Shown: in pieces, positions 52,372-61,516 of the stretch
Layout of the letters: each line of letters begins with the position of its first letter
Numbering within the stretch: position 1 is the first letter of the stretch
From: Phorcysia thermohydrogeniphila
GTDB lineage: Bacteria > Aquificota > Aquificia > Desulfurobacteriales > Desulfurobacteriaceae
Length of the DNA: 64,000 bases
NCBI RefSeq assembly: GCF_004339575.1
Contig: NZ_SMFV01000001.1
Span: 62,001 to 126,000 of the forward strand
Direction: 5' to 3'
Translations under genes and position numbers: made by a program
The notes under the pieces: generated by a model
Told to the model about the DNA's origin: nothing
Databases searched by the model: none
The model's input: only the letters and a program-made list of their open reading frames with translations

Positions 52372-52707
52372 ATGGTTTCCAATGTAACTACTACTGATAC
52401 GACGTACGTCCAGTATCAGCTCCTCCAGCAGATGTTCCAGTACAGGCGTCATTATGGCCAGCATAAGGGAATGGGACTTGTGATGCAGTTCTTGACTCCA
52501 GAGCAGAGGCAGGAAGTTTCCTCCCTCCTTCAGGATTTAACCGAGGAGCAGAGGATAGAGGTAAAGGAGCAGATACTTCAACTTGACTTGGCCTCCATGA
52601 CTTCCGACCAGCTCTTTGAGTCCATCGTGAACATTATCTCCTCTGTAAGTGGCGCTACCTCAGTTTCGGACTCTGGCTCTACAGTCGGGGTGGATGTTTA
52701 CGCTTAA
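52372..52707 (+). CDS. Small Gln/Ser-rich protein, first gene of the sigma-54 operon
   Basis: This 111-aa protein has no signal peptide or membrane segment. The middle has two runs resembling an LTPEQR motif (LTPEQRQEVSSLLQDL and LTEEQRIEVKEQILQL), predicted helical. The last 20 residues are rich in Ser, Gly, Thr and Val and end VGVDVYA. A strong GGGAGGT site precedes the ATG. It is the promoter-proximal gene ahead of the DUF2202 gene. It may be a structural, regulatory or carrier/precursor protein. I recognise no family. Confidence 0.6.
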   Translation: MVSNVTTTDTTYVQYQLLQQMFQYRRHYGQHKGMGLVMQFLTPEQRQEVSSLLQDLTEEQRIEVKEQILQLDLASMTSDQLFESIVNIISSVSGATSVSDSGSTVGVDVYA

Positions 52708-52764
52708 AGAAGGGTCTCTCCGGGTGGCCCTCTGAACCTAAAAACCTTCTTAAGGGAGTTAGCC

Positions 52765-54099
52765 ATGGTAAAGAAAGCCTTAGTACTTCTGTCAGCAGTA
52801 GTTCTCTGTTTTCCTTTTGAGCTTAATGCAAAAATGCCAGTTAAGACTTATGGGGAGTACTACGTTCAGAACCTTCCAAAGCAGAAGTTAAACAAGTCAG
52901 AGATTTCCGACCTCCTCTACATGAGGGAGGAGGAAAAGCTTGCAAGGGACGTTTACCTGACCCTTTCAAAGGTTTATCCCCTTCCTGTTTTCAGGAATAT
53001 TTCAAGGTCTGAAGAGCAACACATGAAGATGGTGAAGGTTCTCCTTGATAAGTACGGAATCCCAGACCCGGTTGCAGAAACTGGTAACAGGGTTGGAGTT
53101 TTTAAGAATAAGAAACTACAGGAGCTCTACAACAAGCTCGTTGAGCAGGGGAGGAGCTCTCTCATTGCTGCTTTAAAGGTGGGAGCTACAATTGAAGACC
53201 TTGACATCAAAGACCTTGAAGAGGCTATCTCTAAGACGGACAACGAGGACGTAGAGGTTGTCTACCAGAACTTGATGAAAGGTTCAAGAAACCATATGAG
53301 GGCCTTTGTAAGACTCCTTAGACGTTTCGGTAGCGACTACACACCTCAGTACATCTCAACTGAGGAGTTTCAGAGAATCCTCTCAGTTAAGCACGAGGCC
53401 GGATTTTACGGCTCTTCCGGTAAACCTTACGTTGCCGACTTTACAGAGGTAGTTGAAGGAAAGGTTCTAAAAGTGGAGAAAGTTCCCGGTTTTGGAAGGC
53501 GTAAGGTAATGTGGTGGACCGTGGATGTAAAGACGGGAAACGGAACCGTTAAAGTATGGCTCGTTCCTGTCTGGAGGTATCCATCAATCAACTTAAGGCC
53601 CGGCGATGAGGTGAAGGTTACCGGCTTTGTTCCACCTTACTGGCAGATAAGTGGGATAGAGGGAATGATGGCCTGTCTTGTAGAAAATAAAAGTGCTGGA
53701 GCTCTCATAGACTTTACCTTTAAACCTCCTTGTAGAGGAATTAACGTTAAAGGAACAGCTGTTGCCCAGAAGAACAAGACTTTGGCCTCCTCTGGAAACA
53801 GAAGGAGCTGGACTCTAACCGGAAAAGTCGTATCCATCTCTCAACAGCCGGGTGTCGGAAGGAAGAACGTAACTTGGTGGGTTGCAGATCTTGAGACCCC
53901 TCAGGGGAACGTAAAGGTTTACCTTGCCCCTACCTTTAGGTTTCCAAGTATTGACGTTTCTCCGGGAGATTCCCTTCAGCTAATGGTCTTTACGCCTCCT
54001 CGCTGGAGGGTTCTAAATGTGCAGAATACCTATATGGCCTGTTACTTTAAGAATCTGAGCAAGGGTTCTGAGTACAGAATAAGGAGACGTTGTCCGTAG
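52765..54099 (+). CDS. Exported DUF2202 ferritin-like protein with two C-terminal repeats
   Basis: A signal peptide (first about 22 residues) directs export. Residues about 45-190 are a DUF2202 domain, a ferritin-like four-helix bundle, with candidate iron ligands in YMREEEKLARDVY, RSEEQHM and KGSRNHMRAF. The C-terminal half has two similar units of about 80 residues (about 225-300 and 350-430), each with a VKVEKVPGFGRRKVMWW / ISQQPGVGRKNVTWW strand pair and a PGD turn before F.PP.W. These look OB- or beta-sandwich-like and are unknown to me. An iron, oxygen or redox function in the periplasm is inferred from the first domain only. Confidence 0.75.
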   Translation: MVKKALVLLSAVVLCFPFELNAKMPVKTYGEYYVQNLPKQKLNKSEISDLLYMREEEKLARDVYLTLSKVYPLPVFRNISRSEEQHMKMVKVLLDKYGIPDPVAETGNRVGVFKNKKLQELYNKLVEQGRSSLIAALKVGATIEDLDIKDLEEAISKTDNEDVEVVYQNLMKGSRNHMRAFVRLLRRFGSDYTPQYISTEEFQRILSVKHEAGFYGSSGKPYVADFTEVVEGKVLKVEKVPGFGRRKVMWWTVDVKTGNGTVKVWLVPVWRYPSINLRPGDEVKVTGFVPPYWQISGIEGMMACLVENKSAGALIDFTFKPPCRGINVKGTAVAQKNKTLASSGNRRSWTLTGKVVSISQQPGVGRKNVTWWVADLETPQGNVKVYLAPTFRFPSIDVSPGDSLQLMVFTPPRWRVLNVQNTYMACYFKNLSKGSEYRIRRRCP

Positions 54100-54112
54100 T
54101 GGGAGGTGGGAG

Positions 54113-54928
54113 ATGAGAAGATTTGTGAGCCTTTTCCTGTTCTTTACTCTAATAGCTATGGTTGTTAGTGGTGTCGTTCTCTACATCATGCCCCACGGAA
54201 GGGTAGCTTACTGGACGGGCTGGAGGTTCTTAGGACTTGATAAGGACCAGTGGGACAACCTCCATACCGTCTTCGGTTTCCTCATGGTTTTCTTTGGTAT
54301 CTGGCACGTCGTTCTAAACTGGAGCAGTATCGTGAGCTACATTAAGGGGAAGGCAGGAGCTCTCCTCTCCAAAGAGTTTCTTCTTTCCTCTGTAGTTGCT
54401 CTTGTTGTAGCTGTGGGCACTATCTTGAACCTTCCTCCCTTCAGCTTTGTTTCTGAGTTTGGAGAACAGATTAAGAACATGTGGGAAAAGCCGAAGGTAA
54501 TGCCTCCTGCTCCCCACACGGAGGTCTTCCCCCTTAAGAAGGTAGCAGGGCTTGTTGGAATTTCTCCTGAAAAAGCCCTCAAAGTTCTAAAAGATAGGGG
54601 CATAAAGGTTAGTTCCTTAGACGAGAGGCTAAAGGACATTGCCCTTAAGAACGACACCACACCTGCCCATATTTACGAGATTCTCCTCTCTGCCTCACCA
54701 AAGAAGGAGAAGACCTCCTTTAAATTCCAGCCCGGTTCCGGTATGGGTAGGATGACTCTAAGGGAAGTGTGTCAGGAGCTTGGAATTCCTGTTAAGGAGT
54801 GTGTTAAGAAGCTTAAAAGTCACGGAATAGAGGCGACTCCTGATAAAACACTGAGGGAGATAGCCTTTAGCCAAGGAAGGTATCCTTACGAGATTGTTGA
54901 AATTTTACAGGGAGGAAAGGATGAGTAG
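54113..54928 (+). CDS. DUF4405-type membrane (cytochrome b-like) protein with duplicated C-terminal domain
   Basis: The N-terminus has the DUF4405 pattern: a TM helix FLFFTLIAMVVSGVVLYI, then MPHGRVAYW (His28), DNLHTVFGFLMVFFGIWH (His51, His65) and further TM helices up to about residue 105. The histidines are placed to bind heme b. After about residue 135 come two homologous segments of about 55 residues (LKKVAGLVGISPEKALKVLK and LREVCQELGIPVKECVKKLK), each ending in a YEIL or YEIVEIL helix. These cytoplasm- or periplasm-facing repeats are of unknown use. It lies 13 nt after the DUF2202 gene and overlaps the PqqD-like gene by 8 nt. Confidence 0.75.
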   Translation: MRRFVSLFLFFTLIAMVVSGVVLYIMPHGRVAYWTGWRFLGLDKDQWDNLHTVFGFLMVFFGIWHVVLNWSSIVSYIKGKAGALLSKEFLLSSVVALVVAVGTILNLPPFSFVSEFGEQIKNMWEKPKVMPPAPHTEVFPLKKVAGLVGISPEKALKVLKDRGIKVSSLDERLKDIALKNDTTPAHIYEILLSASPKKEKTSFKFQPGSGMGRMTLREVCQELGIPVKECVKKLKSHGIEATPDKTLREIAFSQGRYPYEIVEILQGGKDE

Positions 54929-60797: not shown

Positions 60798-60802
60798 TCT
60801 TT

Positions 60803-60816
60803 GGGGCGTATGCCCC
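60803..60816 (+). terminator. Short hairpin between barrel and TPR genes
   Basis: GGGGC (60803-60807), loop GTAT and GCCCC (60812-60816) form a 5-bp GC stem followed by GCTTTA. It may act as a partial terminator or processing site that lowers expression of the last gene. Confidence 0.4.
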
Positions 60817-60838
60817 GCTTTAAAGAGAGGTAAGGGAA

Positions 60839-61516
60839 ATGAAGAGAGTTCTGACAGCAGTTTTCTTATTCTTTTTCCTCGGGACGTCGGCCTACCCGCT
60901 GACCTACGAGGAAATAAAGGAAGCTTACCAGAGTTCCTTTACTTACGAAAAAAGCGGTAACTACGAGGAAGCAATAAAGGCTTTAATGCCCGTCTATAAG
61001 AACTACCCTAACGGCTATACGGTGAACTTGAGGCTTGGATGGCTTTACTACTTGATTGGAAAGTATGCAAACTCTATTTACCACTATGAAAAGGCTTTAA
61101 AGAGCGTTCCATCCTCTGTTGAGGCGATGCTTGGGCTTTCACTACCCTACATGGCTCAGGGTCGCTGGGGCGATGTGGAGTCTCTTATGTATCGGCTTTT
61201 AAAGATTGATTACTACAACTACTACGGTAACTTGCGGCTGTCCTTTGCCTTGAGAAAGCTCAAAAAGTTTTCTGTGGCAGAGGCTGTGGCAAGGAAGATG
61301 CTCGCAATCTACCCTACTGATGTAAACTTCCTCAACGAACTTGCCATTTCTCTGTTCCATCAGGGGAAAAAGAGTTACGCAGAATCTCTCTTTAAGGATA
61401 TTCTTATCCTTGACCCTGAAAACGTTATCGCCAAGGAGTATATGGAGCTCCTTAAAGGGAAGGGGGAGAAAAGAGAGGAAAAGGGCGAAAAGCTACGCCC
61501 TTCCCAAGCGTTTTAG
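60839..61516 (+). CDS. Exported tetratricopeptide-repeat protein
   Basis: A signal peptide (first about 19 residues, ending TSAYP) precedes at least four helical TPR units, with Gly-Asn-Tyr-Glu-Glu-Ala, Gly-Lys-Tyr-Ala-Asn-Ser and Gly-Lys-Lys-Ser-Tyr-Ala turns. TPR proteins assemble complexes; here a periplasmic scaffold for the operon products is likely. It is the last gene of the sigma-54 operon, 41 nt after the barrel gene. It runs 24 nt into the convergent purD. Confidence 0.83.

Follow-up and report, generated by a model that had tools for sequence, protein, structure and literature searches.

Gene organization and control of the operon

The window analysed here is a stretch of 64,000 nucleotides from the thermophilic bacterium Phorcysia thermohydrogeniphila (contig NZ_SMFV01000001.1, positions 62,001 to 126,000), a species with a genome of 1.62 Mb in an assembly that is 99.4% complete. 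At positions 52372–61516 of the window lie ten open reading frames (ORFs), all on the plus strand, which encode among others a PqqD-type protein, an ATP-grasp ligase, a pyridoxal phosphate (PLP) decarboxylase, a urea-transporter domain fused to an M23 peptidase domain (UT-M23), an outer-membrane barrel-like protein and a tetratricopeptide repeat (TPR) protein. The nine successive intergenic distances are 57, 13, −8, −8, −4, 0, −10, −26 and 41 bases. A first-pass annotation, made from the DNA alone, had described ten rightward genes with short gaps or overlaps, and the coordinates and distances agree with this description and support a single operon. Only two starts were shifted: the likely start of the PqqD-type protein is at 54921 and that of the decarboxylase at 56496, because GGAGGG precedes the ATG there and homologues begin with MKK. 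The domain calls of the annotation were confirmed by Pfam for eight proteins, while the barrel-like protein and the first small protein match no Pfam family. All features are listed in Table 1.

Table 1. Genes and control elements of the operon and its regulator pair (positions in the window).
Feature	Position	Strand	Remarks
NtrC-type sigma-54 activator, dedicated response regulator	49746..51092	+	Response_reg, Sigma54_activat and Fis-type HTH_8 domains
Membrane histidine kinase paired with the activator	51089..52207	+	HATPase_c 1e-16; 4-base overlap with activator gene
Palindrome 1, probable activator site TTCGGAATTCTTTCCGAG	52210..52227	.	TCGGAAN4TTCCGA
Palindrome 2, probable activator site TTTCGGAAAAATTTCCGAAA	52242..52261	.	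Upstream of the operon in relatives too
Sigma-54 promoter TGGCACTCCTCTTGCT	52300..52315	+	TGGCAC-N5-TTGCT; in L032, L034, L037, L053, L054, L058, L134
Small protein, accessory	52372..52707	+	111 aa; two LTxxQ-like stretches; no signal peptide seen; no Pfam family
DUF2202 ferritin-like protein with OB-like repeats, accessory	52765..54099	+	PF09968 6e-59
DUF4405 membrane protein, accessory	54113..54928	+	PF14358 3e-20
PqqD-type discrete RRE, lasso B1-like, core	54921..55172	+	PF05402 2e-18
ATP-grasp ligase, core	55165..56196	+	ATP-grasp 2.5e-8; nearest solved sequence 2pn1
c-type cytochrome (CxxCH) with Cys-rich tail, accessory	56193..56483	+	Cytochrome_CBB3 PF13442 6e-6, exactly at cut-off; slot varies among relatives
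Alanine-racemase-fold PLP decarboxylase, FigC/FslC-like, core	56484..57857	+	Orn_Arg_deC_N 2e-35; best PDB match 7kh2
Predicted RRE-recognition tail of the decarboxylase (MKKRYEKPVIFKLKTGLMNKFG...)	56496..56582	+	YEKPVI at 56508-56525
Urea-transporter-fold membrane domain fused to M23 peptidase domain, core	57848..59932	+	PF03253 2e-64; PF01551 2e-12
Unclassified outer-membrane barrel-like protein, core	59907..60797	+	GGFVVYNLKEKYKGG-type motif; no Pfam family
Exported TPR protein, core	60839..61516	+	TPR families 3e-17

The promoter and both palindromes follow the kinase gene and precede the first gene of the operon. The pattern TCGGAAN4TTCCGA occurs at two sites in the whole genome, both of them here, and the backward pattern used as a control gave no match. 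Promoter and palindromes are found at the equivalent place ahead of the operon in relatives of several genera, including Thermosulfurimonas, and the activator gene adjoins the operon in a number of genera, Thermosulfurimonas again among them. Judged from these conserved elements and from the domains of the activator, control of the operon by a dedicated sigma-54 two-component switch, as had been proposed at first reading, is well supported. At one related locus (L037:13219-14592) a lipoprotein-like, Gln/Asn-rich protein of 457 residues replaces DUF2202 after the sigma-54 promoter.

Co-occurrence and distribution of the core genes

We searched 136 Aquificota genomes with five proteins (PqqD-type protein, ligase, decarboxylase, UT-M23 and barrel); phyla outside Aquificota were sampled by one contig scan. 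UT-M23 was detected in 45 genomes (44 after removal of one match to the M23 part only), the PqqD-type protein in 44, the ligase in 43, the decarboxylase in 42 and the barrel in 47 (43 once four weak matches were dropped). Of the 48 Aquificota genomes possessing any of the five genes, 39 have them all. Pairwise Fisher tests over the 136 genomes gave p-values from 3e-26 to 8e-35, which ignore shared ancestry and are not true probabilities. The strictest pair is that of the PqqD-type protein and the ligase, as every ligase-bearing genome (43/43) also has the former. The association outlasts rearrangement: in one genome (G108) the genes for UT-M23, ligase, decarboxylase and PqqD-type protein are on four different contigs (C7, C20, C12 and C8), and in genus g4 UT-M23 lies far from the enzyme genes. 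The unusual combination of families pointed out in the first-pass annotation is thus borne out by the survey of gene neighbourhoods across genomes, even where the genes are unlinked.

Beyond the Aquificota, Thermosulfurimonas, Thermodesulfatator and one metagenome-assembled genome (MAG) of the Deferribacteres share the order PqqD–ligase–decarboxylase–UT-M23–barrel–TPR. Matches were also obtained in WOR-3 and Thermotogota MAGs, which are possibly misbinned. The TPR gene adjoins the barrel gene in most loci. The genes for DUF2202, DUF4405, cytochrome c and the small protein were encountered in the species' own family and, in part, in Thermosulfurimonas, and not in the other loci; among the loci read, the small protein has homologues in L034 and L035 alone. 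By this distribution, these four genes are accessory. A copy of the gene set was found in neither the plasmid nor the viral collections, and distant homologues on plasmids are flanked by unrelated genes. In one genome (G116), a second PqqD-type gene, a truncated ligase of 164 residues, a palindrome of its own and an ORF of 477 residues are located just upstream of a complete set (L070:188-2488).

The small protein was considered as a precursor of a ribosomally synthesized and post-translationally modified peptide (RiPP) and was rejected, since it is not conserved. Its LTxxQ-like stretches recall Spy, CpxP and ZraP proteins.

The PqqD-like protein as a RiPP recognition element

The PqqD-like protein is encoded just upstream of the ligase gene. 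Its only good sequence matches in the PDB are TbiB1 and TfuB1, which are RiPP recognition elements (RREs) of lasso peptide pathways. The structure model has a confidence (pLDDT) of 91, and its best Foldseek match is the TbiB1–leader complex (TM score 0.82, 36% identity), ahead of PqqD itself. In LppB, residues N33, D70 and F74 hold the Tyr and Pro of the YxxP leader (PMC13381572). These positions align at a constant offset of 6 to N27, D64 and F68 of the PqqD-like protein; among 17 sequences, N27 is present in at least 90%, and D64 and F68 are invariant. According to the structure model, the protein is a discrete RRE with a winged helix-turn-helix fold in which the YxxP-contacting residues are conserved.

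Several other assignments were tried. The score for PQQ biosynthesis (TIGR03859) was 14.6, with a cut-off of 46, and the operon encodes no Pqq partner domain. A carrier function at the C-terminus, of the LysW type, was rejected, the C-terminus not being conserved. The leader peptidase B2 of a lasso pathway (Transglut_core3) is absent from the genome, the same family being matched in two control genomes, and none of the operon proteins, the part of the genome that was searched for it, has an asparagine-synthetase-like cyclase domain. The protein does score above the cut-off for the PqqD family of the HPr-rel-A system (TIGR04353, 43.6 bits with a cut-off of 35 bits). The HprK-related kinase A (TIGR04352) gave no match in the 136 genomes, and the control genomes were silent as well.

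A conserved amino-terminal tail on the decarboxylase

The decarboxylase, encoded in the same operon as the RRE, carries an amino-terminal extension that resembles a leader peptide. Its amino terminus could be read in 44 distinct sequences, four further copies, cut by contig ends, being without this region. All 44 contain the pattern Y[EQ]KPxI four residues past the likely start; Y, K, P and I are invariant, and a Gly follows five residues later in 43 of them. When the first 45 residues were searched for Y[EQ]KPx[LVI], the pattern was present in 42 of 43 decarboxylases and in none of 562 unrelated ORFs from the same loci. Five matches to the motif occur in the DNA of the whole genome, no more than for the control, and the only real gene of this genome with the strict form Y[EQ]KPx at its amino terminus is that of the decarboxylase of 457 residues. 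A YxKPxI tail is absent from the organism's own LysA-like protein (locus L074).

Discrete RREs of lasso peptide systems recognize the sequence [Y/W]xxPx[L/V/I/A/F/Y] (PMC13381572), which the tail fits. In the AlphaFold2 model, residues 1–33 score about 34 in pLDDT, most of the body lies at 80–97, and the other low stretches are active-site loops. Strong conservation together with predicted disorder is the expected profile of a docking peptide. Binding of the tail by the RRE is a strong prediction, and docking is well supported in silico. The tail had been missed at first reading; it would explain why a PqqD-like protein is encoded here at all.

Decarboxylase and ligase

Of the earlier assignment of the decarboxylase, the PLP enzyme class stands and the similarity to diaminopimelate decarboxylase (DapDC) does not. 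The nearest relative is instead FigC (7kh2), an N-citrylornithine decarboxylase, both by sequence (209 bits; 164 for the best DapDC) and by fold. The catalytic residues K89, H219, E309, R312 and C377 are invariant, and T327, Y331 and M355 of FigC, the last being the Met beside the catalytic Cys, are retained. At the positions of H357, R387 and N389 of FigC, of which the first two are proposed citrate contacts, the enzyme has I380, Q410 and M412, each of them invariant. The score for the FigC/FslC family (NF041039) is 231.7 bits, below the cut-off of 500 bits. Related enzymes handle free Orn, Arg or diaminopimelate with charged residues that are absent from this pocket. Assignment to LysA and lysine synthesis was rejected: TIGR01048 gave 234 bits with a cut-off of 297.9, CMNID replaces the CESSD-type motif, and the genome has a separate LysA-like gene.

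The ligase is similar to CarB and PRK12767 and not to graspetide ligases. From the residues of the pocket we infer that the substrate of the decarboxylase may be an N-acylated amino acid, with an acyl group other than citrate, built by the ATP-grasp ligase.

A universal Cys-rich precursor peptide encoded between ligase and decarboxylase was considered and dismissed, as most lineages are without one. In genera g5 and g7, Cys-rich peptides of 40–44 residues, several of them with a lipobox-like signal, are encoded at this site, which is the slot of cytochrome c (L033:7124-7258, L034:12091-12213 and 12216-12347, L035:6955-7089, L053:8505-8639 and L152:10621-10746).

UT-M23 and the envelope components

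The urea transporter DvUT (3k3f) aligns over the whole membrane domain of UT-M23. The Gln/Glu pair of DvUT, which we take to be the urea-coordinating residues, is altered: the Glu position (171 here) is Ala or Thr in 19 of 19 UT-M23 sequences, and the Gln position is Gly, Ala or Glu. The urea transporter model TIGR03441 gave 101 bits, below its cut-off of 274.6. Urease was detected in 3 of the 136 genomes, none of which has UT-M23. A urea function of UT-M23 is therefore unlikely, because the Glu is replaced and urease is absent from the genomes with UT-M23. The active-site residues of the M23 domain (H349, D358, H433, H466 and H468) are invariant.

The same M23 subfamily (45–48% identity over the domain) is encoded on Thermus and haloarchaeal plasmids (L164:4638-5597 and L165:4686-5612), where the proteins have hydrophobic amino-terminal segments. 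As haloarchaea have no murein, the subfamily may cut something else. Elsewhere in the window (12768-14480 and 18909-23131), inspection by eye revealed a clostripain-like lipoprotein and a neighbouring pair of large lipoproteins, of which one has FG-GAP-like repeats.

A proposed pathway and its alternatives

We consider it probable that the core genes constitute a biosynthesis-and-export pathway in which two enzymes are joined by a recognition pair of the RiPP type. In this pathway the RRE would bind the YEKPxI...G tail at the amino terminus of the decarboxylase and thereby bring this enzyme to the ATP-grasp ligase, whose gene nearly always neighbours that of the RRE. The ligase would acylate an amine group of a basic or diamino amino acid with a carboxylic acid that is probably not citrate, and the FigC-like decarboxylase would then strip the alpha-carboxylate to leave an N-acylated amine. 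The UT-like channel may take the product out together with the barrel and the TPR protein, the M23 domain may trim the product or the wall, and the two-component system would turn on the operon through sigma-54. We infer substrate, order of the enzymes and transport along with the product, which is probably exported. The earlier suggestion that the pathway serves a small product derived from an amine or peptide is supported.

Some observations weigh against this pathway. The p-values for co-occurrence are uncorrected for shared ancestry, YxxP is a short motif, and the nearest solved relative of the ligase (2pn1) is a weak match only. In some lineages UT-M23 is encoded away from the enzymes, so that export of the product is guesswork. 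A positively charged stretch after the last helix of UT-M23, if anything, favours a cytoplasmic M23 domain.

The product might be a metallophore, which is a special case of the pathway: a metal-chelating N-acylated diamine, where the metal or its redox state would be handled by the DUF2202, cytochrome b-like and cytochrome c proteins. The nearest known decarboxylase makes rhizoferrin, ferritin-like and heme proteins are encoded in the operon, and Cys-rich peptides occupy the slot in g5 and g7. However, the operon has neither a synthetase of the NRPS-independent siderophore (NIS) type nor a TonB-dependent receptor, the citrate contacts H357 and R387 of FigC are replaced by I and Q, and the f4 and f5 loci have the set without the redox genes. 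We regard this special case as rather unlikely.

Alternatively, the decarboxylase itself could be the substrate, if the RRE bound the leader-like tail and the ligase modified residues after it (for example NKFG), which would activate the enzyme or tether it. Leader-guided modification of peptides by ATP-grasp enzymes is known from graspetides, the leader is followed by a conserved N-K-[FL]-G, and the genes for PqqD-like protein and ligase are the most strictly paired of the set. The residues after the leader differ, however, in Thermosulfurimonas (MREKKSA) and in the Deferribacteres MAG (SKAG), which keep YxKPxI..G, and the ligase is of the CarB/PRK12767 kind rather than graspetide-like. Modification of the decarboxylase appears improbable.

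A redox or iron-stress operon centred on DUF2202, DUF4405 and cytochrome c, with all other genes auxiliary, is very unlikely. It would fit the position of the small protein, DUF2202 and DUF4405 genes directly after the sigma-54 promoter, but it is the core without these genes that families and phyla conserve; a redox or iron response as the core function, as once suggested, is not supported, since several core-keeping lineages have the set without DUF2202, DUF4405 and cytochrome c. Urea uptake or lysine biosynthesis, which the UT and DapDC-like annotations would suggest, can practically be dismissed in view of the changed Glu and Gln positions, the lack of urease in genomes with UT-M23, the separate LysA-like gene and the MNID sequence in place of ESSD of DapDC.

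Returning to the two-enzyme pathway, we propose, with somewhat better than even confidence, that recognition of a leader by an RRE has been reused here to assemble a small-molecule pathway. The leader would be fused permanently to one enzyme, which the RRE would join to the other, and the system, equipped with a sigma-54 switch and export parts of its own, would represent a new class of RRE-scaffolded, non-peptide pathways. As an assembly it falls outside the lasso, PQQ, LysA, urea-transport and rhizoferrin systems when tested for membership in them, although all of its parts come from known superfamilies. A limited check of the open-licence literature found no description of this gene set.

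Comparison with known systems

The discrete lasso model of RRE-Finder detects almost 8,000 proteins. Lasso genes accompany only about 4,000 of these, and the remaining matches have been treated as possible false positives or as unknown classes (PMC7470986). The gene set described here offers a concrete explanation for some of these orphan matches, namely that the leader can sit on an enzyme. This leads to a rule for genome mining that can be tested: search for YxxP tails on full-length enzymes beside orphan PqqD genes. If the proposal is true, a tag-handling device of peptide antibiotics also works outside such pathways, and the tail may provide a heat-stable peptide tag for the assembly of enzymes. 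The gene set would also define a conserved pathway for a small molecule in hydrothermal bacteria.

With lasso systems (B1/E; TbiB1/TbiA and TfuB1/TfuA) the operon shares the RRE subfamily, the fold, the recognition motif and the residues contacting Tyr and Pro. It differs from them in that the motif is on an enzyme of 450 residues and not on a short precursor, that the genome has no B2 and that the operon has no cyclase. The PqqD family of the HPr-rel-A system is a further relative by its score, with no HprK-rel-A partner seen (the control was silent). DvUT has the membrane domain in common with UT-M23 over its whole length. Unlike DvUT, UT-M23 has Ala or Thr at the Glu position, is fused to M23 and occurs in genomes without urease.

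FigC and FslC of the rhizoferrin pathway in Francisella resemble the decarboxylase in sequence and fold, in the Met by the catalytic Cys and in a pocket without the charged residues for free Orn, Arg or diaminopimelate, and they too have an ATP-dependent ligase alongside. The ligase of the operon, however, is of the ATP-grasp type and not an NIS synthetase, the citrate contacts are replaced, the RRE tail is added, and UT-M23 and the barrel are encoded in the same operon.

Butirosin biosynthesis (BtrI/BtrJ/BtrK) has the same combination of an ATP-grasp ligase, a decarboxylase of the alanine-racemase fold and a small protein. The small Btr protein holds the substrate as an acyl carrier, whereas the small protein here, with no known carrier site, is predicted to be an RRE.

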